Shown: positions 21,127 through 49,999 of the stretch, one piece after another
Position numbering within the stretch: position 1 is the stretch's first letter
Layout of the letters: each line of letters begins with the position of its first letter
Assembly: GCF_021134715.1 (NCBI RefSeq)
Contig: NC_060019.1
Coordinates: 3,782,001 to 3,846,000, forward strand
Direction of reading: 5' to 3'
DNA length: 64,000 nt
Source: Daphnia pulex
Taxonomy: Eukaryota > Arthropoda > Branchiopoda > Diplostraca > Daphniidae
Notes under the pieces: generated by a model
Databases searched by the model: none
Seen by the model: only the letters and a program-made list of their open reading frames with translations
What the model was told of the DNA's origin: nothing
Made by a program: the position numbers and the translations under genes

Positions 21127-21620
21127 GAAATTAAATTTCTCATCACTGTATTCCTAGGGATGTCGTATTTTCGATAAATACAGGATGCACCACTCTTCAA
21201 TTATCTCACTCTAACTTTTCAATCTCAAAAAAAAAAAACATTCTTACATCAAACGGGAGACAAGCCAAAGGCCGACCTCCATAATAAAAACTTTTTTTCT
21301 TTTCCTCTCAACAAACAGGAACGCAGCATTCCAAAGGTGATTAGGTGAACGAGGGTCGAGCCAAAACTCAGCCGACCCACCGCTCATCACGCCATCTACT
21401 GAGAGGAAGGAGAGACGAAAAACTTTCACTCTCCAACAACACCGGCAGAGGCGCTGCAGTCAAACTTGAAGCAGCCACTCTCCAACAACACCGCAAGAGG
21501 CGCTGCAATCAAACTTGAAGCAGACACCTCAAGCAACCAAACAAACAAACAGGCTCAACAATTAATAATTAAACAAAAACAAACTAATCTAAAACCCTTT
21601 CTCTTTCAAAAACAATCAAG

Positions 21621-24600
21621 ATGACTACTCCGACAAGCGAAGCGTCACGGAGAGGCATGAAAGGACATGTCACTCGCTGGATCAATAACATCCAGCAGTA
21701 CGACAACGTGCAGATGGATCGCACAATCCACAACCTAGTGCTGGGAGCCGAATCCAACTTACGCAACATGTACAGCAAATACAAGCGACTCTCAGAGGGG
21801 GTCGCCAAAGACATGGAGCAAGCAGGAGCGACCCAAGAACAATTTCAAGCGGAAATCGACAGCCAAATCCAAGTTGAAGAGGATGTCGGTGACGCACTCA
21901 TGATCGCAAAACGAAAAAGAGAAGAATTCAAAGAAATGCAAGACGCTGAAGAAAGAAAACGGCATGATCAGACGCTACTGCTCATGCTCCAGACGCAACA
22001 AGCAGCAGCGGACGCCACCAGGGCCCAGGAAAAAGCCGATCAAGATGCAGCCAGGGCCCAGGAAAAGGCCGATCAAGACGCTGCCAGGGCCCAAGAAAAA
22101 ATCGACGAAGACGCTGCAAGAGCACAGGAAAGAGCAATCCGTCAACAAGAAAATCTGGATCAACAGAACTTGTTCCGACAACTGATTGCCGCCATTCCAG
22201 CAGCAGCTGCACCAGGAGCGCCAGCAGCTGCAGCAGCAGTTGCGTCAACTAAACTGCCAAAACGTCAAATCAAGCCGTTCAAAGGGGACGTGCTCGAATG
22301 GACAGCCTTCTGGGAAGGTTACAACGCAGCCGTCCACGAATCGGCCATTCCGGCGGTTCAAAAATTTGGATACCTTAAAGATTACTTGAAAGGTGAAGCA
22401 CAACTGTGCGTGGAGAACCTGGAGCTGACAGACGCCAACTACACCGTCGCAATCACCCTCCTGAAGGCAAGATATGGCAAAACGGACGTCCTAATCGAGG
22501 CCCACACACAGAAATTGGACACGCTGCAACCAGTAAAAGACGTAGCTGATACCGCGGCACTCAGGTGCTTCCAGTTGACTATCCAGTCACACATCAATGC
22601 GTTGGAGACACTGGGAGTAGCAAGAGCCAGCCACGGGTGTCTCCTTGGATCAAGAATTTTGCGCTCGATCCCACTCAAACTTCAAGCAGAGTGGGCCAAA
22701 TCAGCAACGAACAAGGTAACTGACATTGATCAAGTACTAAATTTTATCGAAGAGCAAGTTGAAGTCGCAGAGCGACTCAGCCGTCTGAGAGCTTCAACAC
22801 AAAAGCCAGCCCAAAATTCTCAACAGCCGGCAAAATCAACACCACCTACTACACCGACAGCCTCTCAGCTCGGAGTCAGCAGCAAGCCGACTCCACAATC
22901 GAAACATTCAAGCAAAACAAGAAGAAATGGCAGTCCACCACCAAGGAGAGAGGCGACAGCATCATCTCCAAAAAAGCCAATGCTGCCATGCGTGTTCTGC
23001 AAGGAGATGCATTGGGCTATCAATTGCCCAATGGAGCTGAAAGAGAAAAAAGCAGTCATCACAAACGAAAAAAGATGCTCTAATTGTTTTGGTCATCACG
23101 AGACCACTGTTTGTTTTAATCCACACAGGTGCCAACGATGCCGAGCCAAGCACCACACATCCTTGTGTGCCGAGAAAGATACCAGATTCGGATCCTCAAC
23201 GATAATTCCAAGCAAACCGGTCGCTGGGAGCAGCTCAACAACAGCATGTGCAAGCTCCTTTGGTGAAGTCATCCTAAAAACAGCAACCGTTTACATTACA
23301 GGCACGAATGGAAAACAAATCCGAGCGATTCTCTTTCTCGACGATGGCAGCCATAGAACATGGATTAAAAGGCAGATTTCGAAAGAGCTTCAACTAAAAA
23401 TCATCCAAGTGGAACAGATCGCGACCAGGGCCTTCCGGCAGACAGAAGCCCCTCCAGCAGAAACACACAATGTGGTCGAGATGACGGTGCGGGGCACCTG
23501 GCCAGGAGCCCCAACGGTGCGTATTGAAGCTCTAGAAGCAACCGACAAAGTTGGAAGCACCGGCCCGTACCAAACCACAGAATTTGCAAGAAAGCTGTGG
23601 CTGGAGAATGAAAATTTGGCAGACGACCGATTCGAACGTGAAGGTGGAGACGAGGACGTTGGAATTCTTGTTGGAATGGACCAGATGTTCAACATCATGT
23701 TCAACGAACCAGCAACTATCAGCCCGTGCGGACTCAGAGCCTACACGTCCAAACTTGGGAAAGTCATCGGCGGTCCATCGCAAGAAAAATCATCGAAACA
23801 AAATCAAACAATTGTCAGTCAACTTCTAATCAATTCAAATCGCTCTCTTCCACAGATCACTTCACAGCCATCGAAATCCATCCAATCAAACAAGTCGGAA
23901 AGCAGGGAGACAGGAAATTCCAGTCTCCTTTCACTACCAGAAAATTCTGAACAGATCTGCTTTTACGACACAACAAAAGAAAACAAAAGGTTTGAAATGG
24001 AGAAATTGAATTTTGATCTCTCATTATTTTGGCGTCTAGAGAATTTTGCCAATCTGAACGACTGTGTTGCTGTGGAGAAGGACGATCAATTCCGCTCCTT
24101 CTGCAACGAAATCACACGATTCGAAGACGGCAGGTATTGCACGCCAATCCCGTGGACGACAGACAGATGGAGACTGGAAATCAACCACCAGATGGCAGCT
24201 ACAAGATTGAGAAGCATGCTGTCCAAACTACGCAAATCTCCAGTCGACTTGGCCAACTACACCAAAGAAATCAACCAACTGATAACAAACGGATTCGTAG
24301 AAGAGGCTGATTTCAATTACGATGGCCTCCACACCTATCTACCGCATCATCCAGTCTACCGGACGGACAAGGCCACAACAAAAATCCGCCCAGTTTTCGA
24401 CGGCGCCGCAAGATCCAAATATGGGCCGAGCCTCAACGATGTTTTGGAGACCGGACCGAATCTAAATCCTGATCTCCTCTCGGTCTTAATGCGCTTCCGG
24501 ATGAACCGGATCGCCTGGATTGCGGATATTGAAAAAGCCTTTCTCAACATCGCGCTGCAACCCGAAGACGCCGAAGCGGTCAGATTTTTATGGCCGAAGG

Positions 24601-34554: not shown

Positions 34555-34986
34555 TAGACTATACATACTAGCTTGAATGAATTCCCAAACGTGTTTTTAA
34601 GTTGTTGCTAAATTGCTTGAAGTAATTTTTCGGCGACTAGGTACGCCCACAAATATCGGGATATTTTTTTTTCTTTACACATTGAATCTCAAATTATTAT
34701 AGATATTGTAGATATTCCACGAAGAGAAGAAAAAAAAACAATTTCAAATGACGGGAATGTTAAAAAATTAACCCCTCAGAAATGAAAAATCAGGCGATAA
34801 AATGAAAAAAAAATAATCAAAAAGAGGAGGAATACTTTCTTGTTGAGTGACATTTACCGTCCACACTTGGAACATAAGTGAGGCAGGGTATACATTTAAG
34901 GTGACCGTAAGGGCGTAAGGAAAAAGAAAATTACAATAGCAACTAATCACCACATGCACGAAGACATGTGACATACAGAACAACGT

Positions 34987-35045
34987 ATGGGGGGGGGGGA
35001 GGGGAGACGTGAACGAGGAGAGTGAGGGGGGGGGGGGGGAGGGTA
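34987..35045. repeat. Poly-G tracts downstream of NPC1
   Basis: Several runs of 8-13 G, interrupted by GA-rich sequence, ~90 bp beyond the NPC1 stop. They could form G-quadruplexes on one strand. Confidence 0.8.
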
Positions 35046-35617
35046 GATAAGACAAGCGACAGAAATGGATATCGAGCTCAAAGCCAGATTCACATTCCAT
35101 CCATCAACGACAGAGTCTGGAACGAACGACGATTATGAGGGAGGATGTGGATGCGACGCCTTGGCCACATCAGTCTCGCTATGAACATCAACCCTGGCGT
35201 TATGGCGGTGGATCTCATCCTCATGTCCCTCGTTCGGAATATCAGAAAATTGCGGATAACTTAGATTTTGCGTCGGCGACGGAGACACGTTGCCCGATTT
35301 ACAATTTTTCAAAAACAGCTTGTGACGATTTACGCCAGGTCCTGCCAATTTAAAAATAAAAATTTGTTAATTCACGTTGAAGTAGTCAACTGTCATCACC
35401 ACCACAACAAGAAGAGAAAATAAGAAAACAAAACTGAGGAGAGAAAAGAAGCGAGCACAACACGAATCCAAATACCTCAACCCCAGTCAACTGTCGTGAA
35501 GAGTTTAACGAAATGAAGGATCGACACATTTAAAAAAAAAACGGAGCAAATCAGCGTTAATAAGGACCAAAGTAATGAAGTGTGTGAGTAATGGAAAAAA
35601 GTTTTATAGATTTAAAA

Positions 35618-35640
35618 AAAATAATAATAATAATAATAAA
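35618..35640. repeat. (AAT)n microsatellite in NPC1 last intron
   Basis: About seven AAT/ATA units after an A run. Confidence 0.85.
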
Positions 35641-35654
35641 AACGCAGGCAGAGT

Positions 35655-35809
35655 TCAAACGACTAAAACATGAAACAGCAGGCATGAAGTTTTGGAGTCT
35701 GAGAGCCTTACGTTATTCTCGGTTTCAGCTTGGCTGAGTGTTACGTGAACGGTTCGTCGTTGTAAGGAGACGCTGTGCTGCCACGCCTTCAGCTTATTTT
35801 GAGGGGGTC
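35655..35809 (-). CDS. NPC1: Possible alternative last exon of NPC1
   Basis: After an acceptor (CGTTTTCAG, 35810-35818) the frame continues in the same phase as exon 20 and starts GPPQNKLK. The annotated last exon starts GPGVNRHK, and the mammalian protein has GPSVNKAK at this point. So two segments begin with the same family motif. The alternative runs 51 codons to TGA at 35655, or could splice at AAC|GTAAGG (35710-35711) into the downstream exon, where it would stop after three codons. No transcript evidence is available here; an exon duplication with different tails is the simplest reading. Confidence 0.45.
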
Positions 35810-38800
35810 CTGAAAACGCGACCATACGGTGATTCACCAGTTAGACAAAACGGAACGAACACAAACCCGAGTAAAAATAAAGAAACATGACAAACATCAT
35901 CCCGCAAATAGAACATCGACATGGCGATGTGACGAAACTACCAGTCTATCTCTTCAGTTCGCAAAGACAAATGTTGTTACTATCCCTTGGAAACAAACCC
36001 CTAGGTAATGGACTCGTGTTATGTCACGACTTCCGTATACCATCGGAATATTCTCGTATGTTTCGCAATTGAATAGAAAGTCAAGAGACAAATCGACGGA
36101 AAATACAGCGACAAAAACTACACCAGACTAGAAACGCATCATTTCGTACGCAGATAGAAAATGAAGTTCTTACCGATGAACGACAGCAAAACGGGCAAGA
36201 AGATGAGACCGTGGGCGGCGCCAATCAAGACGATACCCAAGTACATGCGGAAGTAAAAGACCTGGAAAATCTGCGATTTGGCAAATGCCAAGACGACTAT
36301 TCCTCCGAATTTGGTCAGCGTGATGCCAGACAGAACCTGAGTTAAAAATAGATCTTTGAGTAATCAATTGTGCAGCCTAAAAACTGGGGAGGAATGTGGT
36401 TTACCGAGCTTCCCATTCTGACGAGAGACTCTTTGGATCTTGCGATACGAGTAGGTTCAATCGAAACGGCAAAGGCACGGACGATGTGACTGCAAAACTC
36501 GACAGAAATACCGACAGCCTATTCAAATGAAACAAATTGAATTAAACCGCGTAGGGTTAAAATCTGTAGAGAACCTTACCATGACAAGGTTGACGAGAGA
36601 CACCGCATTGAGGGTAATGTCCCACAAGTACATAAGGCCAAACAGGTCGACCAAAATCATGATGATTGTGATGAGGACAACAACGGCTGAGTGGATGTCA
36701 AGACCAAGAAGGATAAACGTTACCACGAAGACAGCACTGATCGAAATGCTGAGACTGACCAGCACATCGCGCCACATGGTCAAGTATTGCTCGTAGTAAA
36801 CGTAGAAAATACTGTAGGGGAACACCTCCACTTTGCTGTTGGTAATATTCGACAGTGTTTCTGAAATGCTGTCGGCAATGACTCGGGCTTCAATCAGGGA
36901 CGAATAGAAATCTTTGGACGTCCTGAGGATTGTATGGTACGTCATAAAGTAATTGGCACCAACCACCTCTGTTACATTGTCGTATTGCACAGCCTGAAAT
37001 TCAAAAAACAAAATATACGTTTAGGTTGCTAGTTTTGTCACACGCTAATTCGTATGGTACCTGTCCGTAAGCTGCGTGGCCACCCTTTGGACAATTTTCA
37101 CAAGGGTTATCTTTCAAAAAATATGGCAACCAAAAGTTAAATGTATTTGGATCGGGCCAAAGGTTTTCCTCGTCGATGAAGGTCTTGTTGCATTCGTTGC
37201 AGTCCAAGAAAGGATCTAATTAATTTAGAAAATAAAAGCACCGTTAAAATATGAATGCGAAATGTTGCCAATAAAATAAGCGCACCAGGTTGGAAGGCGG
37301 GACAGAATTCGAATTCTCCGTGTTCGTCAAGTTTAGTTTTGCAACACTCTGAGATTCTGAACCAATCAAGGTAGTCATCGATCCAAGAGGCGGGCGTAGC
37401 GGCGATGTATGAGCGACTCTTGTTCTTGGATGCCAAATAGATTTGAGTGACGAGAGAGTCGGCGTCGCAGCCACGACCACCACACAGTTTTTGCTGCGCC
37501 AGCTGATCCGTGTAGTTGAACTGGCTTTCCTTGACGACGAAGTAAACGGGAGCACCGACAGACAGATACTTGGCAAGATACTGTCGACGTAATCAAAATA
37601 CAATTTTAGTTTTGGGCATTTCAATTCACGTAATTGAGTGGAGACTTACGCTAAAGTAATCCAACATGTACGAGTCTTCAGGCATTGAAAGTTCCTGATC
37701 GAGTCCGACTTCAACTCGCGGAGTGAGAGCCACCGACGCGCACAACCAGCCAAAGAAAACGACCATGACAATGGCTCGCATAGGTTTCGACAAGATGAAA
37801 GGAGCGTAGGCATCCTGGAAAAGTTTGTAGAGGGCTCCTTCGGCGGCCGCAGCATATTTTGGATCGTTCTTCTTACCAACTTGAACGCAACAGCAAATGT
37901 CCAAGCGATTACTCTGTCGGCAGTCAGGTCAAATTGATAAGTTGAGGAAAACCGGGAAAATGTTTTAAAAACAGATGGAAATTTACCTCCTGTCTGGCTG
38001 TATCGAGGGAGAACAATCCGATAAAGCAAGTCATCTGGAGCAAAAAGTCAAGCAGTAGGGCCATGCCAGCATAAAGGGCGAACGCTTTCACGGCGGGCAT
38101 ATCCGATAAAGCACCTTTTGAAGAATAATAATATTAATTTGGATATTCTAAATTAAGGAAATGAGAAATTATTCACCGAGGAAAAAGCAAAAGGCTTCGG
38201 ATATCGAAGAGAGCAACATGGAAGGTGCCACTTCACCGACAATTCGGCCAATATGCTCTTCGTGCGTCTCGTTGGCGCGACGGGGTTCACGTTGGTACGT
38301 TTGAACCAGGATGAAAATATTGTCAACACCCACGGCCAACACCAAGAAGGGGATGACTTCGATAATGATCAGAGTGGCGGGCACACCGACGTAACCGTAA
38401 AATCCGATAGAGGCGACGACAGACAGAAGCACAATAATGACACCTCCGATACCCAGCGTAATCTTGCTGTCAACCTGTAATTTAAAATAAAAATTTCGTT
38501 AAATTAAGCCGACCAAACACTTGAAAACAACAGTTAAATGTCTCACCAAAAGTCTGGAAAAGGATCTAGCTTGACCAAGAGCGATAGCAATATACGCAAA
38601 CATGATGCAGTAAGAAATGGCGATGGTGATGACGTCCGACTGGCTGGCCCGCGTCAATTCGTCTTCGATGGAACGCTCCGCCATGTAAGCCACCGACATG
38701 TACTTTGGCATCTTGTTCTCCTTCCAGAATTTCATGTATTCCAAAAATCTAGAAAGAAAAGGCAGAAAGGTTAAATTAGATCTCGCACTAAAGTCTTCTT

Positions 38801-39992
38801 TGAAGGCATTACTTTTTTTCCCAGTCTTTAGCCGGACCTAATTGGTCTTTGTCTGCAATGTTTTGGACGATAAAGGTCAAAATAAGAGCAGTAGCGTTCA
38901 TGTAGAGTGATTCGTCAGTAACGGATTCGTTTTCTCCGTTTCGGAAACCACCCAGGACGACGTACGGGAATGCCGGACCACCATATTCTGCCAAACAACC
39001 AATTTGTTCCAACGCACCCGTGGTTTCATTTTGCCATTTAAAGTTATTATCGTAGGGCATCAGTGGATTTCTGAAATAAAAGATAAACAAAACATTAGTT
39101 GGGTTTTAAAAAATCGAAATGTTCGTGTCCATACTTGGAGCAGTAAATGGCGTGATCCAAATACGTGTAGTTGTAACCATTCGTTGTTCCAACAACTGAT
39201 TTGAGCAAATAGTCTTCGCGGCCCTGCCACCAGCCCAGCACGCTTTGAATGGTACATTCGTTGACATCGGGTTTCATGGGCATGTAGCAAATGTCATTCA
39301 AACGTGTGCCGTTATCTCCCATCAACTGTGTTCAAAGAAAATCAAACTTTAGATGACTGATGCAATCCAACAGTGGCAAAACACTCACCGCTTCGATATC
39401 GTGTTGCAAGTGCAAAGCTTCCAGAAGAAAGTCGAGTTGAAATGCGGGTCCAAACGTTTTATTCCCCGACAGTGTTTCATATTCAAACTGAAGGAAGATA
39501 AAAATAAATATATTAATTGAAGTTTTTAATTGTCACCATTTTTCCTTTTGGTAAACTTACGCCCTCAATTCCTTCGGCGTGAAGGATAACTTGTTCGGTA
39601 CGGTAGAACGGGGTGAAACTTTTGTCGAAATAATCCTTTTCTTGACGAGAGCGACTCTCCGGGGAAGCCCACAACTCAACGGGATCGATCGTCACTTCAA
39701 GGAAGACAACGCCCACGGTTAGGGCGGCGGCAACCGACAAACCGAAAATGAGCACCATCCACGGCCACCTGGCACAGACTGTCAAACCACAAAATGTTAT
39801 TCACTGAAAAGTATCATTAGCCAATTCACAATGACTTACAAGTTCCCCAGGCGGTGAAGAAGGATTCCAAAGCCTTTTCCATCGATGCTCCAGCTCGTTC
39901 CATAAAAGATCCCTCGACGTATTCATATTGGGAGTCGGTCGATGACGTGGTAGAGATGGTAGGCTGCAACGAACGACGTTTGACTCCGCGCG

Positions 39993-41973
39993 CTAAATTC
40001 AAAAGCAAGACGTCAAGCACAGTTTGGAAACACAGAATTAAAAGTCTTCAATCAAACTTTCGCTCGAATCCAATCGACTTGCAAAACATCGCCACACCAA
40101 TTTATTACCGGGGACCGTTCTAATAAGTCCCACGTGTTACACTATCGGCTTGTAAATAAGTCGGAAGGCGTGGCGATGCTTCGGGTCGTCGAAATGGAAA
40201 GTGAAAGTTTGATGAAGCAATATTATCCAAGTTTAAAAACTTGTTGCGGAATGATCAGGTTGTAAGGAAAGAAATAGGGGGTTGGATCAAACAAAATTAG
40301 ATTATGTTGAAACAATCGTAAAAGCAGTCGACGCATAGTGTTGCCGTAATACCGTGTAAAGCTCACGGAGCGCAATCAAGCAGATGAAATCAAAAAAAAT
40401 ATCCCAGATAAAAAATAGTGTAGAAATAAAACAGAGAAAGATGAAGACAACACTAAAACACTACGTAGAAATTTAAAAAAAAAAAGATTTCATCAAAACC
40501 TCAAGCTATTAACCAGTGCATGCAGTAATCGTGGGACGGTGATTCGTCAATTATGAAGCTTCTTCTTTTTTTTAAAAGACAAGTGAAACAATCAATCGCC
40601 ATGACGTCAACGACTAAAAGAAACGCGAAATAGATCACAGGGGGAAAAAAAAAGTGAAAATAGATAACAAAAACCACCGATTAAACATTATACAATTATG
40701 CTTGCCGATGTGCTCCGATCTGAAAATAAGGCCGCGTTGGAATTTCCAAAGAAAGAAAAGTCTACACCGCGCCACCCATAGACGATACGTAAAAGATACT
40801 AATACTAATAATAAGGCGAACTGGCTTTTCTTCAAGTGGGTCAGTAGGTTTCGTTCGTTCCGTCGGCAAGCAAACGGCGGGCATAAACAAAACAAGGCCT
40901 TCTCTTTTCTCTTTTCCGTCTCTCCGCTATCCATCGTAATGACACGCAGCAGCAACCGCCAGTCAGCACAAACACACACACAAAACGAAGCATATCAACA
41001 CACACACACACTCATAACTACGAGAATCGACACAAGAAAAAATATCAAAATACGTGCAAAAACTCAATCGATATCTCTGGAGATCCAGCGGAGATCCTAG
41101 TTGGCAAGTGTGATGGGGTTTCAGGTTGATAAGAAAAGGTATAAAGAGAATAGATAGAGAGAGAGAGAGAAGGAGGCTTAAAAGTAAACCGGCGGATCCA
41201 CCTACAATGACTGTTTGGGTGTTGAGCTGGTCCTTGGCCAGAAGAAGCTTGTGTCGCCGAGGTGGGAGTTGCAGTGGTGGTTTTAGGTGGGTGCAGTGGT
41301 TCTATTTCGTCGTCGAGTGCTGGTAGCGAAAGGGTATGAGTGGCGGCGCCGGCAAGGCGTCTCCCCACCGAATCCCACCCTCGGCTGATCGTCTCCAGCC
41401 CGTCGTCCAGAATGACTACACGTACACACCGGACCGTTATACATACACAAGCTTGGTGTCTTTTGGTTTTGGCACAAAAGACATTGGGGGGACAATACGA
41501 TCAATAACAACAGATGCGGACACCATCATAACGACCCAACGGAGTGTGACCCTACCCGAGTTCAATCATTTTACAATTTCTTACAGTTCCCTCATTTAAT
41601 TGACATATTCCCCACACAGAAAAAAGCCCTGCACGGGTCGTGAGATTTTTCTTTAATTAAAATAATAAAAAAAAACAAGACGATAACCCAGCAAACATAC
41701 ACAATGGATGGGGCAATACGGGAGGAGCGACGACTAAATGGGACCCCTGAATGGAACAAGCGATTCCTTTGGTATGTGGAAGGTGTTGTTGTTAATCAAG
41801 TCCCACAGTTACGTCATATGTCAGTGTCTTTTCATAAAACACGGCATGTCCATTTCTTTGACCAAGTCTTTGGTGCCCCCATTATCCCAGTCGTTGTGAA
41901 TTTTTTGGGGCCAACGAAAGTGTCGTCTCAGTCCACCGCAGGCGATTATATAAATTCAGATGAAATGACTTAC
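39993..41973. other. NPC1 intron 5
   Basis: The longest native NPC1 intron seen (1981 bp), holding a (GA)n run at 41156-41171 and CA-rich stretches (40970-41010). No exon-like segment with matching phase was found. Confidence 0.6.
41156..41171. repeat. (GA)n microsatellite
   Basis: About eight AG units inside NPC1 intron 5. Confidence 0.85.
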
Positions 41974-42999
41974 CGACTCGGTCCACGTGCCACTTCCAGA
42001 AAACAGTCACCAAGAAGGTGCCAGAAACTGCAAGGAAGACCATCAACATGACGAAAGAGACGCCGTACATGGAACCGATGGTCCACGGCTCAGGCAGAGG
42101 GGGCCACGGCTTGGGAACCGGGCAACTGCCAGTACAATCGACGCAAGAGCAGGTTCCACTCGAGTTCTAAAGAAATGCAAAAGCATATTATAATTTCAAA
42201 CCAAAAAAGAAAATAATAATTCGACGTTGATATTTACACTAATAGCTTCGTAGCAAGGGATAGCTGGAGGAGCAAAAGGTTCGACAACATCGGTGACAGT
42301 CTCTCCGTCAGGAATGTACTGGAAGTAGATGTCAAAGGGCGAGAATCCTTGATTGGCCATGCCAAGTCCCATGAAATCCAACAATCTACAGACAAAATTA
42401 TATGAAAGGTGATTTTTATGAAATGGATTCAAAATAGACTTTTCATACCTGTGAGGAGAGCAGTCCTCGCCCCACTGGCCACAAATGGTCGGCATAACAA
42501 GACTGTTTGAAGATGGATTTGTAACTTCCTTGCACGAGTCGTACATCTCAGTCACATAAGTATCGGAGATGTAATATTCCAAAGCTTTGACGACTACGGT
42601 AGAATTGGTAATCGGTTCAGGTGTTGAATGCTCTTCTGTCGTGTTGTACGAGAGGAATCGACTGTGATGCGGATCGCAGGTCATGGTACAAAAGATCATC
42701 CGCAAGTTGCGGGCGCAACTCGGGCATCGTCCCACCAAATTGAGGGCCTGTCCAAAGTTGACAATCAAATCGTTGATTTGCCTTGAATCACAACAAAAAT
42801 GCGGTTCTTCTCCAGGACCTGATTTAAAAAGAAATCCAGTTATTTGGCATCAAGTGGTGAAAACTTAACTGTTAATTTACCAAATTGATCAAAGAGTTCG
42901 GGACACACTGAATAGAGTGCTGCATGATCAGTGTCTGCTATTGGCATAGCTTCACCTGAGTAGGCATAATTGTAGGCGTAGTCACAGTCGCTGCAGGTG

Positions 43000-43212
43000 T
43001 GTTATAGTCTCCGCCTAGGCCCTGTCTCCCCCTCCGTCGTAGCTCGACATCTGAGCCCCCTTGCGGCTCATGTCGGCCCTACTTCCTTCCGGCCATGGGC
43101 CAGTCAGTCTTGCCTTAGTGTTCTGCCTGTACGGTACTCCCATCCCGTCGTTCAATACAGTTTGGTTAACTCGGACCTCGGTTTGTTTGTCGATCCTCGT
43201 TAGATCATAACA
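43000..43212 (+). repeat. Gypsy 5' LTR
   Basis: 213 bp, identical by eye to 47833-48045. Confidence 0.95.
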
Positions 43213-43230
43213 TGGCGCAGTTGATAACTT
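43213..43230 (+). other. Gypsy primer-binding site
   Basis: TGGCGCAGTTG directly follows the LTR; its first eight bases match the tRNA-Ser-primed sites known from 17.6/297-type elements. The tRNA assignment is from memory of the family. Confidence 0.6.
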
Positions 43231-43385
43231 AACCACTTATTTCGACTCGAGTGCTACAATTCTACTTTGCTAAAGTGGGTGCTTTCTGAGAGCATTTTCC
43301 CCTCGTGGCTCACGTGTTGGCCGCCATCTTAGACAGTTTTTGATCTCGTGTTCCCTGTGTGGTTTATCCGTCCTCATCTGCCAAA

Positions 43386-46300
43386 ATGTCTGTCATCGGC
43401 AGTATTGGCGATATGCCACGAGACTATATGATCATTGACATTCCTGACGATGAAATCCAGCACCTCTCTCACGCCCAACTCATCGCTTTGGTGCACGAGC
43501 AAAGTCAGAAATTCCGAACGGCCATGGAACGCGAAAGGTCGGCTCATGACTCAGAGCTTGAGGCTCACATGGAAGAAGATCGCCTTCGTCGATCCGATGT
43601 TCGTCCCAGAAGCCATAGTGAAGTGCCGGACGAACTTGACCGTGATCGCCATCGCGAACGTCGCCGCCCAATCAACGTGTCGTGCATCGATAAAATGGCG
43701 GGTGATATTTCTTACCGTGACTTTTTGACTTGGCGCAACAAGTGGGACGATTTTTGTTATCTTCAACGGATTGCTGAATATCCGATACGTGAACAAGCTG
43801 CTGCATTGCGTATGACTCTGTCCTTGGAAATGCTGCAGACGGTCGAGATGGTACTTGATATCTCTCCTTACGACCTTTTATCGGCAGATGAAATTCTTGC
43901 ACAGATCGCACATTACATTCGGAAGAAACGCAGTGTAGCTTTAGATCGCGTCGAGTTTGAAGAATATCGTCAAGACCACGGCGCCACTTTCGACGAATTT
44001 TATATTGGACTGCAACGCATCGCCAAGTGTGCTGATTTATGCCAACATTGCTTTGATCAGCGTATGACAACGCGTGTCATGAGTGGCATCTGTGACCAGG
44101 AGGTGCGTAAAAAACTGCTCGCTATCACACCGTTCCCATCGCTACAGACCGCAGTTGATCTATGCCGCAGTGAAGAAGCGGCCGGCAAAAACGAATCTTT
44201 GTTGAGCCGTTCTGGTGCGACTTCAGTGAACGTGGTAAAACAGCCGGAGGAAAAGGGAAATCGATCCCGCACGCATTTTCACCGCCGTGGAGAACACAGG
44301 GATGGACTCAGGTGCGGAAATTGTGGCCACCCCCCTCATGATTCGGGCAAAGATTGCCCAGCTAAAGGTAGAGAATGTCATAATTGCGGCAAGCCGGGTC
44401 ATTTTTCGACGGTTTGTGACAAGCATAAAGCTAGGAGCGAGAAACAGGACTCAAGCGTCAAGAAACTCGCAAGCATTCGCCTTGCACACGTCGCAGCTGC
44501 ACGTCGTGCCCCAACCATCCAGATCGGTATTCATAATCGGTCGGGTGGACACCTCTACACCGCCACCGCTATTCCGGACAGCGGCGCGGAAGCAACGGTA
44601 GCCAGTATGGCAATTCTTCGATTGATGGGTGAAGACGTCAATAATCTGTTGCAGAACGGTGTCGATAGCCTGACAGCGGCCAATAATTCGTCACTGGAAT
44701 GTGCCGGTCGTCTCGAACTGCAGTTACGCTACAGAGGCCGATCAGTTACTACATCCATCTTGTTCAGCCCCGAGCATGACGGAATGCTGCTTTCTTGGTT
44801 CGTGTGTGTAGAACTAGGCCTTCTTCCACCCTGCTATCCGGAACCCATCATGATAAATACAATTGCCACCGCCTCTCCACCTCCAATCGACATGTCAGAT
44901 ATCCCAGCTTTGGAACAAAAGCTCTTGTCTGACTTTGAAGATGTCTTCGACGTGGAAGGCCCATTGAAAACGATGGCGGGCCCGCCAATGTCAATTGAAT
45001 TACTGCCGGACGCCGTTCCGTTTGCAGTAAGCGGCGCTAGGCCAATTCCATATGCCTTGCGTGATAGGGCTAAGCAAATGCTGGATGACATGGAAGCCAA
45101 CCAAATCATTGCCCCTGTCACCGAACCAACGCTGTGGACTCATCCAATGGTAATCGTCGAAGAGCCGAACGGAAAATTGCGGTTCTGTGCTGACCTGACG
45201 AAACTCAACCAGTACGTGAAACGCCCTTATTACCCGTTAGTTTCGCCAAAAGACGCTGTATCAAGCATCGCCAGCGGTGCAAAAGTTTTTACCACGTTCG
45301 ACGCCCGACATGGATATTGGCAGATTCCGCTGGATGAAGAGAGCCAACTCCTGACCACCTTTATCACCCCGTGGGGGCGATTCAAATTCTTACGTGGACC
45401 AATGGGCCTCTCATCAACAGGCGACGAGTTCTGCCGTAGGATGGCAGCAGCACTAGGTCATTTGCCAAATCTTCATTGCGTCGTCGACGATTTGTTAGCC
45501 GCCCATGCTGATCTACCGACTCACTACAATGCTGTCCGGGAGATTCTGACCGCATGCCGAGAAAATAAAATCACCCTCGGCGCGGCCAAATTCAAGTTCG
45601 CGGCCAACTCGGTCCCTTTCGCCGGATATGTTGTAGGCAGTGACGGCATTGCTGCTGACCCAGAAAAGCTATCGGCGATTGCTGATTTTCCACGCCCGGT
45701 CAATATCACTCAGCTGCGATCATTTCTCGGTTTGGTCGGTCAGCTGGCCGACTTTTCCGATGAAATTTCAGCTGCCGCCGGTCCATTGCGGCCGCTCCTA
45801 CGCCAAGGCAATCAATTTGTGTGGTCAGCTGACCAAGAAAAAGCTTTTGAGACCGTCAAACGCGCTTTAATATCCCCTCCCGTCTTGGCGAACTTCGACC
45901 CATCAGCTGAAACAGTTCTGCAGACGGACGCATCAAGAAAAAATGGCCTCGGATACGTTTTGTTACAACGCCAGGGCGACCATTGGAAGCTCATTCAGTG
46001 TGGTTCGAGATTTGTTTCAGATACCGAGAGCCGCTATGCTATGGTCGAACTGGAGCTGTTGGCGGTTGTTTGGGCTACAAAAAAGTGCCATCTTTACCTG
46101 GTCGGCCTCCCGAAATTTACCCTCGTCGTCGATCATCAGCCGTTAGTAACGATCTTGGACCGTTATACACTGGATTGTGTCGAGAACCCCCGTCTGCAGC
46201 GTCTAAAGGAGAAGTTACAGCGCTACGTCTTCCAAACCGTTTGGCGCCGTGGTAAAGACCACGCCATCCCTGACGCGCTTTCCCGCGCGCCCGTTGCTGA

Positions 46301-47747
46301 CCCAATGCCGGACGATATGTTAATTCGAAGTCTTGACGACCAGGCACGCGTCACAATTTTCAACATCGTTGCAGCTATCGAATCAGATGAAGACGTTGAA
46401 CCAGCCTCACACTTGCCAGATCCCCTGCTGGCCGATCTACGTTCCGCAGCGTCGTCCGACGATGAATATTGCGCCTTGATAGCCGCAGTCCAAGACGTGT
46501 TCCCTTCGCGCCAAGAAGAGTGGCCGATTTCAATCCGCGGATTCTGGAAGATCCGCAACGATCTGTGGACCGATGACGGCCTAGTGTTGTACAACAGCCG
46601 TATAGTGATCCCCCCCTCCAGACGTGCCGAAACATTACGCAAATTACATTCTGCGCATCAGGGCATAGAGCGCACAAAACGTCGTGCCCGTCAACTCGTC
46701 TATTGGCCAGGCCTAACCAGCGACATCACCAACATGGTGAGAGCGTGTGAAACATGCCAAAAGGCGTTACCAAGCCTCCAACGCGAACCTCTCATGTCTG
46801 ATCCCAGCCCGACGCGCGTGTTTGAGGACGTCTCCGTCGACATTTTTTGCCACGCCGGCAACCATTATTTGATCTATGCTGATCGGTTATCGGGTTGGCC
46901 GGCAGTGTTCGAATTCGTGAAACGTGACCTTTGTTCCCGCGACGTGATTCGGTCGTGCATGCGGTGCTTCGCTGATTTCGGTGTTCCCGTCCGAGTACGT
47001 TCTGATGGTGGCACCAACCTGACATCGGCTGAAATCCTAAATTTTTTCAAGAACTGGGGCGTAATTTCCGTCAATTCGACACCCCATTACCCTCAATCTA
47101 ATGGCCATGCAGAAGCGGCCGTCAAGGCTATGAAGAATCTGGTCCAAAAAGCAGCCCCAAACGGCCATCTGGACACCGACGCCTTCCAACAGGGCCTATT
47201 GGAGTGGCGCAACACTCCCCGTGAAGCTGGTCTATCGCCGGCCGAAATTGTCTTCGGCCATCCCATCCGATCCATTCTGCCGGCACATCACACCGCTTTT
47301 GCCAACAAGTGGCGCGAGCTGATGGACCTATCGGACCGCCTGGGCGATCAAGCCGAACGTGTGAAAGCCGCATACGACCAGCATGCACGCCCATTACGTC
47401 CGCTACGAGTTGGTGACTCTGTCCGTGTCCAAGACGCTGATTCTAAGCGCTGGGACAAGCAAGGCATCATTGTGTCAATCGGCGAAAGCCGCGACTACCG
47501 CGTCAAAATGCAAAGTGGCCGGATTTACTGGCGAAACAGAAAATTCCTCCGCCTTGTTTACCCCCCGCTCGCCACCGATGCCGACCCAGCTGCCCCGTCA
47601 CCCGCAATCGACACGAATCCGGAGGAGCCCGGTCCACTGCCTCCGCCGGATCATTCGTCAAACCAGCGCCGCCGTCGGATTAATTTTGATCTCCCCCCTC
47701 GTCGCAGCAACCGTAACAGACACCCCAAAGTGCCTCACGATGCTTAA
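43386..47747 (+). CDS. Gypsy gag-pol polyprotein
   Basis: 1453 residues from ATG 43386 (context CCAAAATGT); upstream in-frame codons start only with GTG. Gag occupies about the first 300 residues, followed by zinc knuckles from C310 ([15 protein letters not shown], then [14 protein letters not shown]). Aspartic protease: D398-S-G-A. Reverse transcriptase has [12 protein letters not shown] and the catalytic box VVDD (699-702), where Val replaces the usual Tyr/Phe. RNase H starts near [13 protein letters not shown]. Integrase has an HHCC zinc domain (~1085-1125), DIF (D~1152), SDGG (D~1206) and HAEAAVK (E~1242). The tail is Pro-rich and basic. No chromodomain or env seen. The frame is intact, so the copy may be active. 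Confidence 0.95.
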
Positions 47748-47822
47748 ATTGATTTCCCTATTGTCATTTGATCCTGATCGCGAAAATTTTGTGTTTGTTA
47801 AGTTGTCATGTAATGAAAACTT

Positions 47823-47832
47823 GGTGGGGAGC
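47823..47832 (+). other. Gypsy polypurine tract
   Basis: GGTGGGGAGC directly before the right LTR. Confidence 0.7.
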
Positions 47833-48045
47833 TGTTATAGTCTCCGCCTAGGCCCTGTCTCCCCCTCCGTCGTAGCTCGACATCTGAGCCCCCTTGCGGC
47901 TCATGTCGGCCCTACTTCCTTCCGGCCATGGGCCAGTCAGTCTTGCCTTAGTGTTCTGCCTGTACGGTACTCCCATCCCGTCGTTCAATACAGTTTGGTT
48001 AACTCGGACCTCGGTTTGTTTGTCGATCCTCGTTAGATCATAACA
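47833..48045 (+). repeat. Gypsy 3' LTR
   Basis: 213 bp, identical by eye to 43000-43212. Confidence 0.95.
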
Positions 48046-48718
48046 AGGTGCCATACCAGACACAGTGGCCCTGTTTATCTTTGCTGCTTTTGGCTACTGT
48101 TTTCGGTGACCAAATGCTGTGGTGTTGAGCTTCAGAATCATGGAATAACTGAGCAATCCATAATGAAAGAGGAAAAACAAATGCATAAAAAGTTTGTACG
48201 AGATCATAACTTCTGCATATTACTGAATCAGCAAAACTAGTGACACATACATTTGCCAACATTTAACACCCATTGCAAAACCTGAAAATCAGTGAATTTA
48301 AATCCCTTTCGAACTTTCTAATTTATTGTACTGACAGCCTGCTTACAGTAAGAGCAGATGGTTGGTCTGATAAATCCTTCTAGAATGTAGACGTTGTAAC
48401 CGCCTCATTGTTTACTACTTCGTTGGGCAGTATCAGGGCAGGGATCTTAAACAACACGACACTCATATGGTGCCATAAACCCTTTAGCTAATGTTAGAAT
48501 TATCGCGAGAGCAAACCAGTCCTGACAACAAATTTATGAATTGGTGAAATTATTTCACTTACCTCATTATCGGCAGTTTCAGAGGTGACTTGGCCGTGCC
48601 AAATCGAGAACAGGAACAACATGAAGACGAAGGTCACGTCTCGCCTCATTTTGTTGTTCCTGTTTCACTCGAAAAAATTACAAGTGTTTCTGACCATTTA
48701 TTTGGACCTGACAGACGT

Positions 48719-49048: not shown

Positions 49049-49999
49049 GGGCGTCCCTAAACTGCGAAAGCGAAACGCGAAACGCGAAACGCCTAAAATG
49101 CGAAACAGCTGTGCGAAACGGACCCAAAAGTTGGGACCCTGTTTCGCATTTTAGTCTTTGGTCCGTACTAAACTGCGAAATCGGTGTGTGCGAAACGTGA
49201 CAAACGTCGCAGTGTAAACGTCTTGGTAGCAGACGACAATGGACTCAACAAACAAATTGTTAGAGTTTAAATGTTTCGAGACTTCGAGTTTCGTGCAGTC
49301 GTGCACCTTATATGGCCGGTCTATTTGTGTGTTGACCATGAATACGGAATACCTTGAATGCAATAGGTGTTTTTAATTAAAAGATTGGTATAAAAAAATT
49401 AATGGGAAATTAAATTCATGTATCAGTCATTAACATTCTTAATTTTAAGGAAAGTTTTAGCCGATTAAATTTTAGCTTGATTTGGAACATGGGAGCTTTG
49501 ATTTTTAGCTTGATTTAAGACACTCATGGCCGATTTTTGTCGTGATGGCCGATTTTTCTTTGTGCACGTAGCCTACTAGTTGATTTAAATAATTTAATGT
49601 AATGTATAGTAATCCCTGTGCCATTATCTAATATATTATTATTTACAAATATAAATATCACCATACCGTGCTGCTCTATGTCTTTTATTTGTTTAATCAT
49701 AAGATGCGCATTAAAACATACAGGGGTAGTGGCGAAGAAATCGAATTTGATTGCCCCCCTTCCTCCTTTAAAGCCTCATCATAGCGGGAGACAATGAAAA
49801 ATGGCGGCAATCTCCGTCAATTTGGACCTCTGTGGGGAAAAGGAAAACTTTTTGTTTCGCAAGATGTTTCGCTCTTTAGTATGCCCTCCGGCATTTGGTC
49901 CCGCGAAACGGTCCCAAAATTTTGGTCCGTTTCGCACAGCTGTTTCGCATTTTAGGCGTTTCGCGTTTCGCGTTTCGCTTTCGCAGTTTAGGGACGCCC
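49049..49999. mobile_element. MULE-like non-autonomous element with long terminal inverted repeats
   Basis: A 951-bp unit starting GGGCGTCCC and ending GGGACGCCC, flanked by the 9-bp duplication TTGTTTTTG (49040-49048 and 50000-50008). The termini pair perfectly for ~76 bp and imperfectly to ~100 bp. Subterminal sequence is packed with GCGAAAC units. Long inverted repeats and a 9-bp duplication are typical of Mutator-like elements. No transposase frame is present. It lies between the divergent NPC1 and pyridoxal kinase genes, ~210 bp before the latter's ATG. Confidence 0.85.

Follow-up and report, generated by a model that had tools for sequence, protein, structure and literature searches.

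A Ty3/Gypsy insertion in an exon of one of two NPC1 genes of Daphnia pulex, and the nearby edge of putative gene conversion between the copies

A retrotransposon insertion allele of NPC1 is known in the mouse, and interlocus (ectopic) gene conversion leaves duplicate pairs with mosaic identity and sharp edges. Signs of both occur together in a 64,000-nucleotide stretch of the Daphnia pulex assembly GCF_021134715.1 (contig NC_060019.1, positions 3,782,001 to 3,846,000; the window, to which coordinates without a contig prefix refer). One of two NPC1 genes (NPC1-B, or copy B) carries a full-length Ty3/Gypsy long terminal repeat (LTR) retrotransposon in its second exon, and its sequence is almost identical to that of the intact gene (copy A) downstream of the insertion and strongly divergent from it upstream. 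The reading favoured here, with a probability of roughly 0.58, is that the insertion disabled copy B and that conversion between the paralogues then stopped at the insertion.

The insertion in NPC1-B and the intact second gene

The element lies antisense to NPC1 and splits exon 2 after the first base of codon 64 (exon 1, 87 bp; exon 2 starting at 48148). The features of the gene and the element are as follows.

48563..48649, minus strand: NPC1-B exon 1 (13/87 differences from copy A)
48046..48148, minus strand: NPC1-B exon 2, portion upstream of the element (exon 2a; 7/103 differences from copy A)
42881..42999, minus strand: NPC1-B exon 2, portion downstream of the element, including its AGGTG copy (0 differences from copy A)
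35655..42818, minus strand: NPC1-B exons 3-20 in the model used (open frame)
43000..48045, plus strand: full-length Ty3/Gypsy LTR retrotransposon, antisense to NPC1 (LTRs, target duplication, and Pfam reverse transcriptase, RNase H and integrase matches)
43000..43212, plus strand: 5' LTR, TGTTAT...ATAACA (213 bp, same as the 3' LTR)
47833..48045, plus strand: 3' LTR (213 bp, same as the 5' LTR)
42995..42999, no strand: target site duplication AGGTG, read from the sequence
48046..48050, no strand: target site duplication AGGTG, read from the sequence
43213..43230, plus strand: putative primer-binding site TGGCGCAGTTGATAAC..., directly adjoining the 5' LTR
43344..47747 (stop included), plus strand: gag-pol, a single uninterrupted frame (1,467 aa, stop to stop)

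Once the element and one AGGTG are taken out, QGHCVWYGTCSDCDYAYNY is again in frame, and the joined frame reads ...CVWYGT and then CSDCDYAY...; with the element in place the frame reads ...CVWYGTLL and ends at a stop two codons inside the element. Copy A has an uninterrupted empty site, GGTATGGCACCTGCAGCG, which serves as an independent empty-site control. An earlier note on this DNA had proposed an insertion into coding sequence at codon 64, identical LTRs and a null allele; the exon model and the restored frame agree with the first, the LTRs match at 213 of 213 positions, and the early stop leaves NPC1-B a predicted null allele, the loss of function being read from the sequence. Assignment of the gene is based on Pfam matches to NPC1_N (2e-40) on the open frame holding the exons after exon 2 and to PF12349 (2.2e-33) and PF02460 (1.5e-18), the sterol-sensing/Patched domain, on the frame at 38169-38498, with no Pfam match for the frame at 36523-37020. 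Against NPC1 chains from the PDB, the paralogue's protein aligns starting at the HCVWYGTC motif.

The element is 5,046 bp long, with LTRs that are direct repeats starting with TG and ending with CA (0 differences in 213 bp) and a perfect 5-bp target site duplication, AGGTG, at its two ends. The TGGCGCAGTTGAT directly after the 5' LTR is a putative primer-binding site by its position. Pfam matches in gag-pol occur in the order RVT_1 (641-763), RNase H (827-961, two matches), H2C2 (1089-1141) and rve (1177-1250), the last, from the integrase core, falling below its curated cut-off; the order of reverse transcriptase, RNase H and integrase assigns the element to Ty3/Gypsy, described in PMC8594854 as the most abundant LTR superfamily in Daphnia. 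There is no env open reading frame after pol because only 85 bp separate the gag-pol stop from the 3' LTR. The genome holds at least six matches to the LTR, two of which are the element itself. Three of the four others were inspected and comprise two solo-LTR-like sequences and one LTR with 179 bp of internal sequence (87-92% identity); the fourth, outside those three, is at C3:5052065 (72%). A DNA probe from the reverse transcriptase region found at least three other matches, at 74%, 74% and 84% (the last over 55 bases). No second full-length copy was found in the genome by these LTR and reverse transcriptase searches, the counts of which are lower bounds, and the source copy of the element is not visible in the assembly. 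At the two solo-LTR-like relatives, C10:9995949-9996159 and C6:5783738-5783957 (L033 and L035), four of the five flanking bases match.

A search of the genome for the NPC1_N family (five candidates scored) returned two NPC1 loci and no other, and the frame of NPC1 exons 3-4 was placed twice. Copy A (C3:3594733-3595125) is on the same contig as copy B, ~230 kb away and on the opposite strand. In a 20-exon model it is open through all 1,373 codons and the stop, as is copy B, insertion aside, and its N terminus (MGRDVAFVF...) is that of the RefSeq protein NPC intracellular cholesterol transporter 1-like isoform X2 [Daphnia pulex]. The two copies differ at 17 amino acids, 13 of them in codons 1-63, before the insertion. 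The exon model omits an alternative exon present in the RefSeq protein and has a C-terminal tail that differs from RefSeq, thus sequence described below as outside modelled exons includes a little that is coding; the insertion itself is unaffected. The alternative exon lies at 41048-41500, within the long intron 5, and RefSeq isoform X2 of copy A contains its translation.

With copy A intact, even a homozygous insertion need not deprive the animal of NPC1 function. Judged from its frame, copy A could supply that function, and a second NPC1 that may cover for a coding-exon hit in a sterol-transport gene offers an explanation of how the insertion is tolerated. A duplicate elsewhere in the genome was among the options raised by the earlier note, and the search located exactly one, with an intact frame and an empty site; the expectation that a homozygous insertion should be harmful is consequently no longer required. 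A single-copy essential gene with a heterozygous null was likewise rejected as a necessity, and a heterozygous null, or a mutant haplotype in the assembly, is possible alongside the second gene. In the reference, the exons of the broken NPC1-B downstream of the insertion are nearly identical to those of an intact gene, a possible source of error in read mapping and expression counts. In D. magna, measurement of a gene called NPC1b is mentioned in PMC5443554.

Similarity of the two copies on either side of the insertion

Downstream of the insertion, copies A and B form a single megablast match (8,378 columns, 98.8%) ending at 42999, immediately before the 5' LTR. An end at that base is forced by the element, and the informative comparison is with the host sequence beyond it. 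There, the 3' end of intron 1 (~200 bp) has substitutions at 58 of 187 aligned sites along with 46 gap columns, exon 1 and exon 2a have the 13/87 and 7/103 differences listed above, and the remainder of intron 1 and the DNA upstream of exon 1, up to 51000, gave no significant match in the searched stretch of copy A. Upstream of the insertion the two genes are an old, divergent pair. The downstream match divides into two tracts.

40479..42999, minus strand: near tract, with almost no differences from copy A (3/825 within modelled exons, 0/1,696 outside them)
34720..40478, minus strand: far tract, mosaic and homogenised (clustered differences; 25/3,107 substitutions within modelled exons, 37/2,625 and 16 indels outside them)

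Outside the modelled exons the near and far tracts differ clearly (0/1,696 vs 37/2,625; Fisher p = 1.2e-8). The 81 events form tight clusters between long identical runs, the longest of 2,104 bp, and neither the variance of the gaps nor the longest run was reached in any of 20,000 placements, in which events were spread uniformly at one rate for exons and introns. These exon and non-exon counts and the clustering test stop at 34720, short of the alignment tail; without trimming, the alignment spans 8,372 columns and contains 83 substitutions. Within the otherwise identical 2.5-kb stretch, three synonymous differences stand alone in 11 bp (42582-42592), which could be either an unconverted island or one multi-base mutation.

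The mosaic of clusters and identical runs points to repeated gene conversion, and the pair shows what is looked for in interlocus conversion, one tract far more alike than the neighbouring homologous sequence. Conversion would also account for the jump in divergence. In the favoured sequence of events, two old NPC1 genes stood inverted on one contig with their 3' parts repeatedly homogenised by conversion, a young Ty3/Gypsy element entered exon 2 of copy B and produced a predicted null, and the latest conversion, placed after the insertion, would have run up to the 5 kb of inserted DNA and ended. A stop at the insertion is expected because homology between A and B ends at the inserted DNA. A tract crossing the insertion would erase the element, so that insertion alleles that survive should show such an edge. 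Either copy, A or B, may have been the donor; a comparison with a related protein (P0002, jgi), which lacks the N-terminal part, gave no direction from four downstream differences judged by eye. More tentatively, and with the odds somewhat against it, integration may itself have fixed or even started the conversion edge, such that the insertion became a wall ending homogenisation and killed one copy, the 3' body of the dead copy being kept in repair by the living one, for which A must be the donor.

For LTRs of the same age as the far tract, the probability of no events in 213 bp would be 0.05 for substitutions or 0.014 with indels included, and the insertion is therefore probably younger than the far tract. 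PMC12926508 quotes mutation rates for D. pulex of 2.30e-9 to 4.53e-9 per site per generation, at which the 95% limits become ~1.5-3.0 million generations (insertion) and 0.19-0.38 million generations (near tract). The earlier note called the insertion very recent, which is plausible; the LTRs bound its age only loosely, 0/213 being compatible at 95% with divergence of as much as 1.4%, and taken alone they do not show it.

The position of the edge and competing explanations

The position of the edge was estimated with a two-rate change-point model of exon 2a and the next 401 bp, a version chosen after two wider ones had been seen. The estimate peaks at -30 bp (upstream of the junction), and the 95% interval runs from -48 to +18. 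The wider two-rate models, extended into intron 1 or 3 kb downstream, had optima of -106 and +2516 and gave almost no weight to the neighbourhood of the junction; they were disregarded, as rates are unequal between exons and introns and between the near and far tracts. Within an empty gene of 8,879 bp, a random insertion would fall within 31 bp of the edge with a chance of 63/8,879, or 0.7%, and with a chance of 2.1% if any of three tract edges is counted. Weighed by hand, a causal link between insertion and edge is favoured by some tens to one, for a coincidence noticed post hoc at one locus.

Several observations count against a conversion that followed the insertion and stopped there. An edge exactly at the junction has only 0.063 of the peak likelihood, and the 30 upstream bases, if truly converted, would place the conversion before the insertion. 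These identical bases encode the conserved QGHCVWYGT, the CVWYG part of which aligns with human NPC1, and constraint may be an alternative cause of their identity. Within coding sequence alone, the near and far tracts do not differ significantly (3/825 vs 25/3,107; p = 0.24), and the coincidence was spotted after the fact in a single gene pair.

The main rival reverses the order, with conversion from exon 2 downwards coming first and the element later landing by chance near an existing edge. The most likely edge, 30 bp upstream of the junction, fits this order, as would a tendency of conversion edges to sit where homology drops, intron 1 being strongly divergent; the low chance of such a placement, given above for one edge or three, speaks against it, and on balance this order of events appears unlikely, if a serious competitor. 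Alternatively, a single event may be responsible, in which the break made at integration was repaired from copy A and the tract is as old as the insertion. This is a special case of the favoured explanation and overlaps with it. A tract that begins at or near the junction and zero divergence both in the LTRs and in the near tract outside modelled exons would agree with a single event, but nothing sets such an event apart from later conversion, and more than one tract is suggested by the island of three sites at 42582-42592; this version is improbable.

An assembly artefact, in which the element falsely links the upstream part of B with a haplotype resembling A, or in which polishing overwrote B with A, is a little less probable again. 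The target site is common to both copies, so a chimera would also show matching AGGTG, and the 1.4% divergence of the far tract may be of the order of allelic diversity in Daphnia. Against this, the 270 kb spanning both copies contain 0 N, extended homology between A and B does not continue past 34634, and the 8.4 kb is bounded on both sides by copy-specific DNA, such that two false joins would be needed; nor could polishing plausibly make an edge between strongly divergent and identical sequence. A simple misjoin is unlikely given this copy-specific sequence on both sides of the block.

Cases of transposon insertions spliced out of transcripts are known in flies and maize, and splicing of this kind, which is compatible with any reading of the conversion edge, would leave NPC1-B working; despite an acceptor-like CACCTGCAG at the junction it is very improbable. 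Nine donor/acceptor pairs in exon 2 and the element keep the frame, and the best of them reaches 5.2 bits, compared with 12.3 to 24.9 bits in the model's 19 introns, a contrast somewhat inflated because the splice matrix was built from those introns. Exact removal of the element was rejected with all nine pairs far below the gene's own introns, as was skipping of exon 2 (103 + 114 = 217 bp), which shifts the frame, and splicing rescue of copy B is deemed unlikely from its predicted sites.

Surroundings and comparison with known systems

Just upstream of NPC1-B, a 90-nt inverted repeat (49049-49138 and 49910-49999; 97% complementary, 771 nt apart) carries heptamer arrays (AAACGCG/GCGTTTC) in both arms and is possibly a small foldback element. 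Several patches within 1-31360 match C3:3.61-3.73 Mb, between the NPC1 copies, at 71-93%, which suggests other local duplicates in the region. A GC-richer stretch with a strong skew of A over T at 21427-22243 holds tandem repeats of 49, 33 and 12 bp.

A literature search of titles and abstract openings returned no description of this NPC1 insertion or of a conversion edge at a transposon in Daphnia. In its LTRs, 5-bp target duplication and order of reverse transcriptase, RNase H and integrase, the element resembles the Ty3/Gypsy (Metaviridae) elements of Daphnia, and it is unlike errantivirus-like Gypsy in having no env frame after pol. As in the mouse insertion allele, a retrotransposon disrupts NPC1, whereas the D. 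pulex genome holds a second, intact NPC1. The duplicate pair has the mosaic identity and sharp edges of interlocus gene conversion and differs from interlocus conversion generally in that one edge coincides with a transposon insertion; if the insertion caused that edge, the locus would be a clean natural case of a transposon ending the concerted evolution of duplicates at near base-pair scale.

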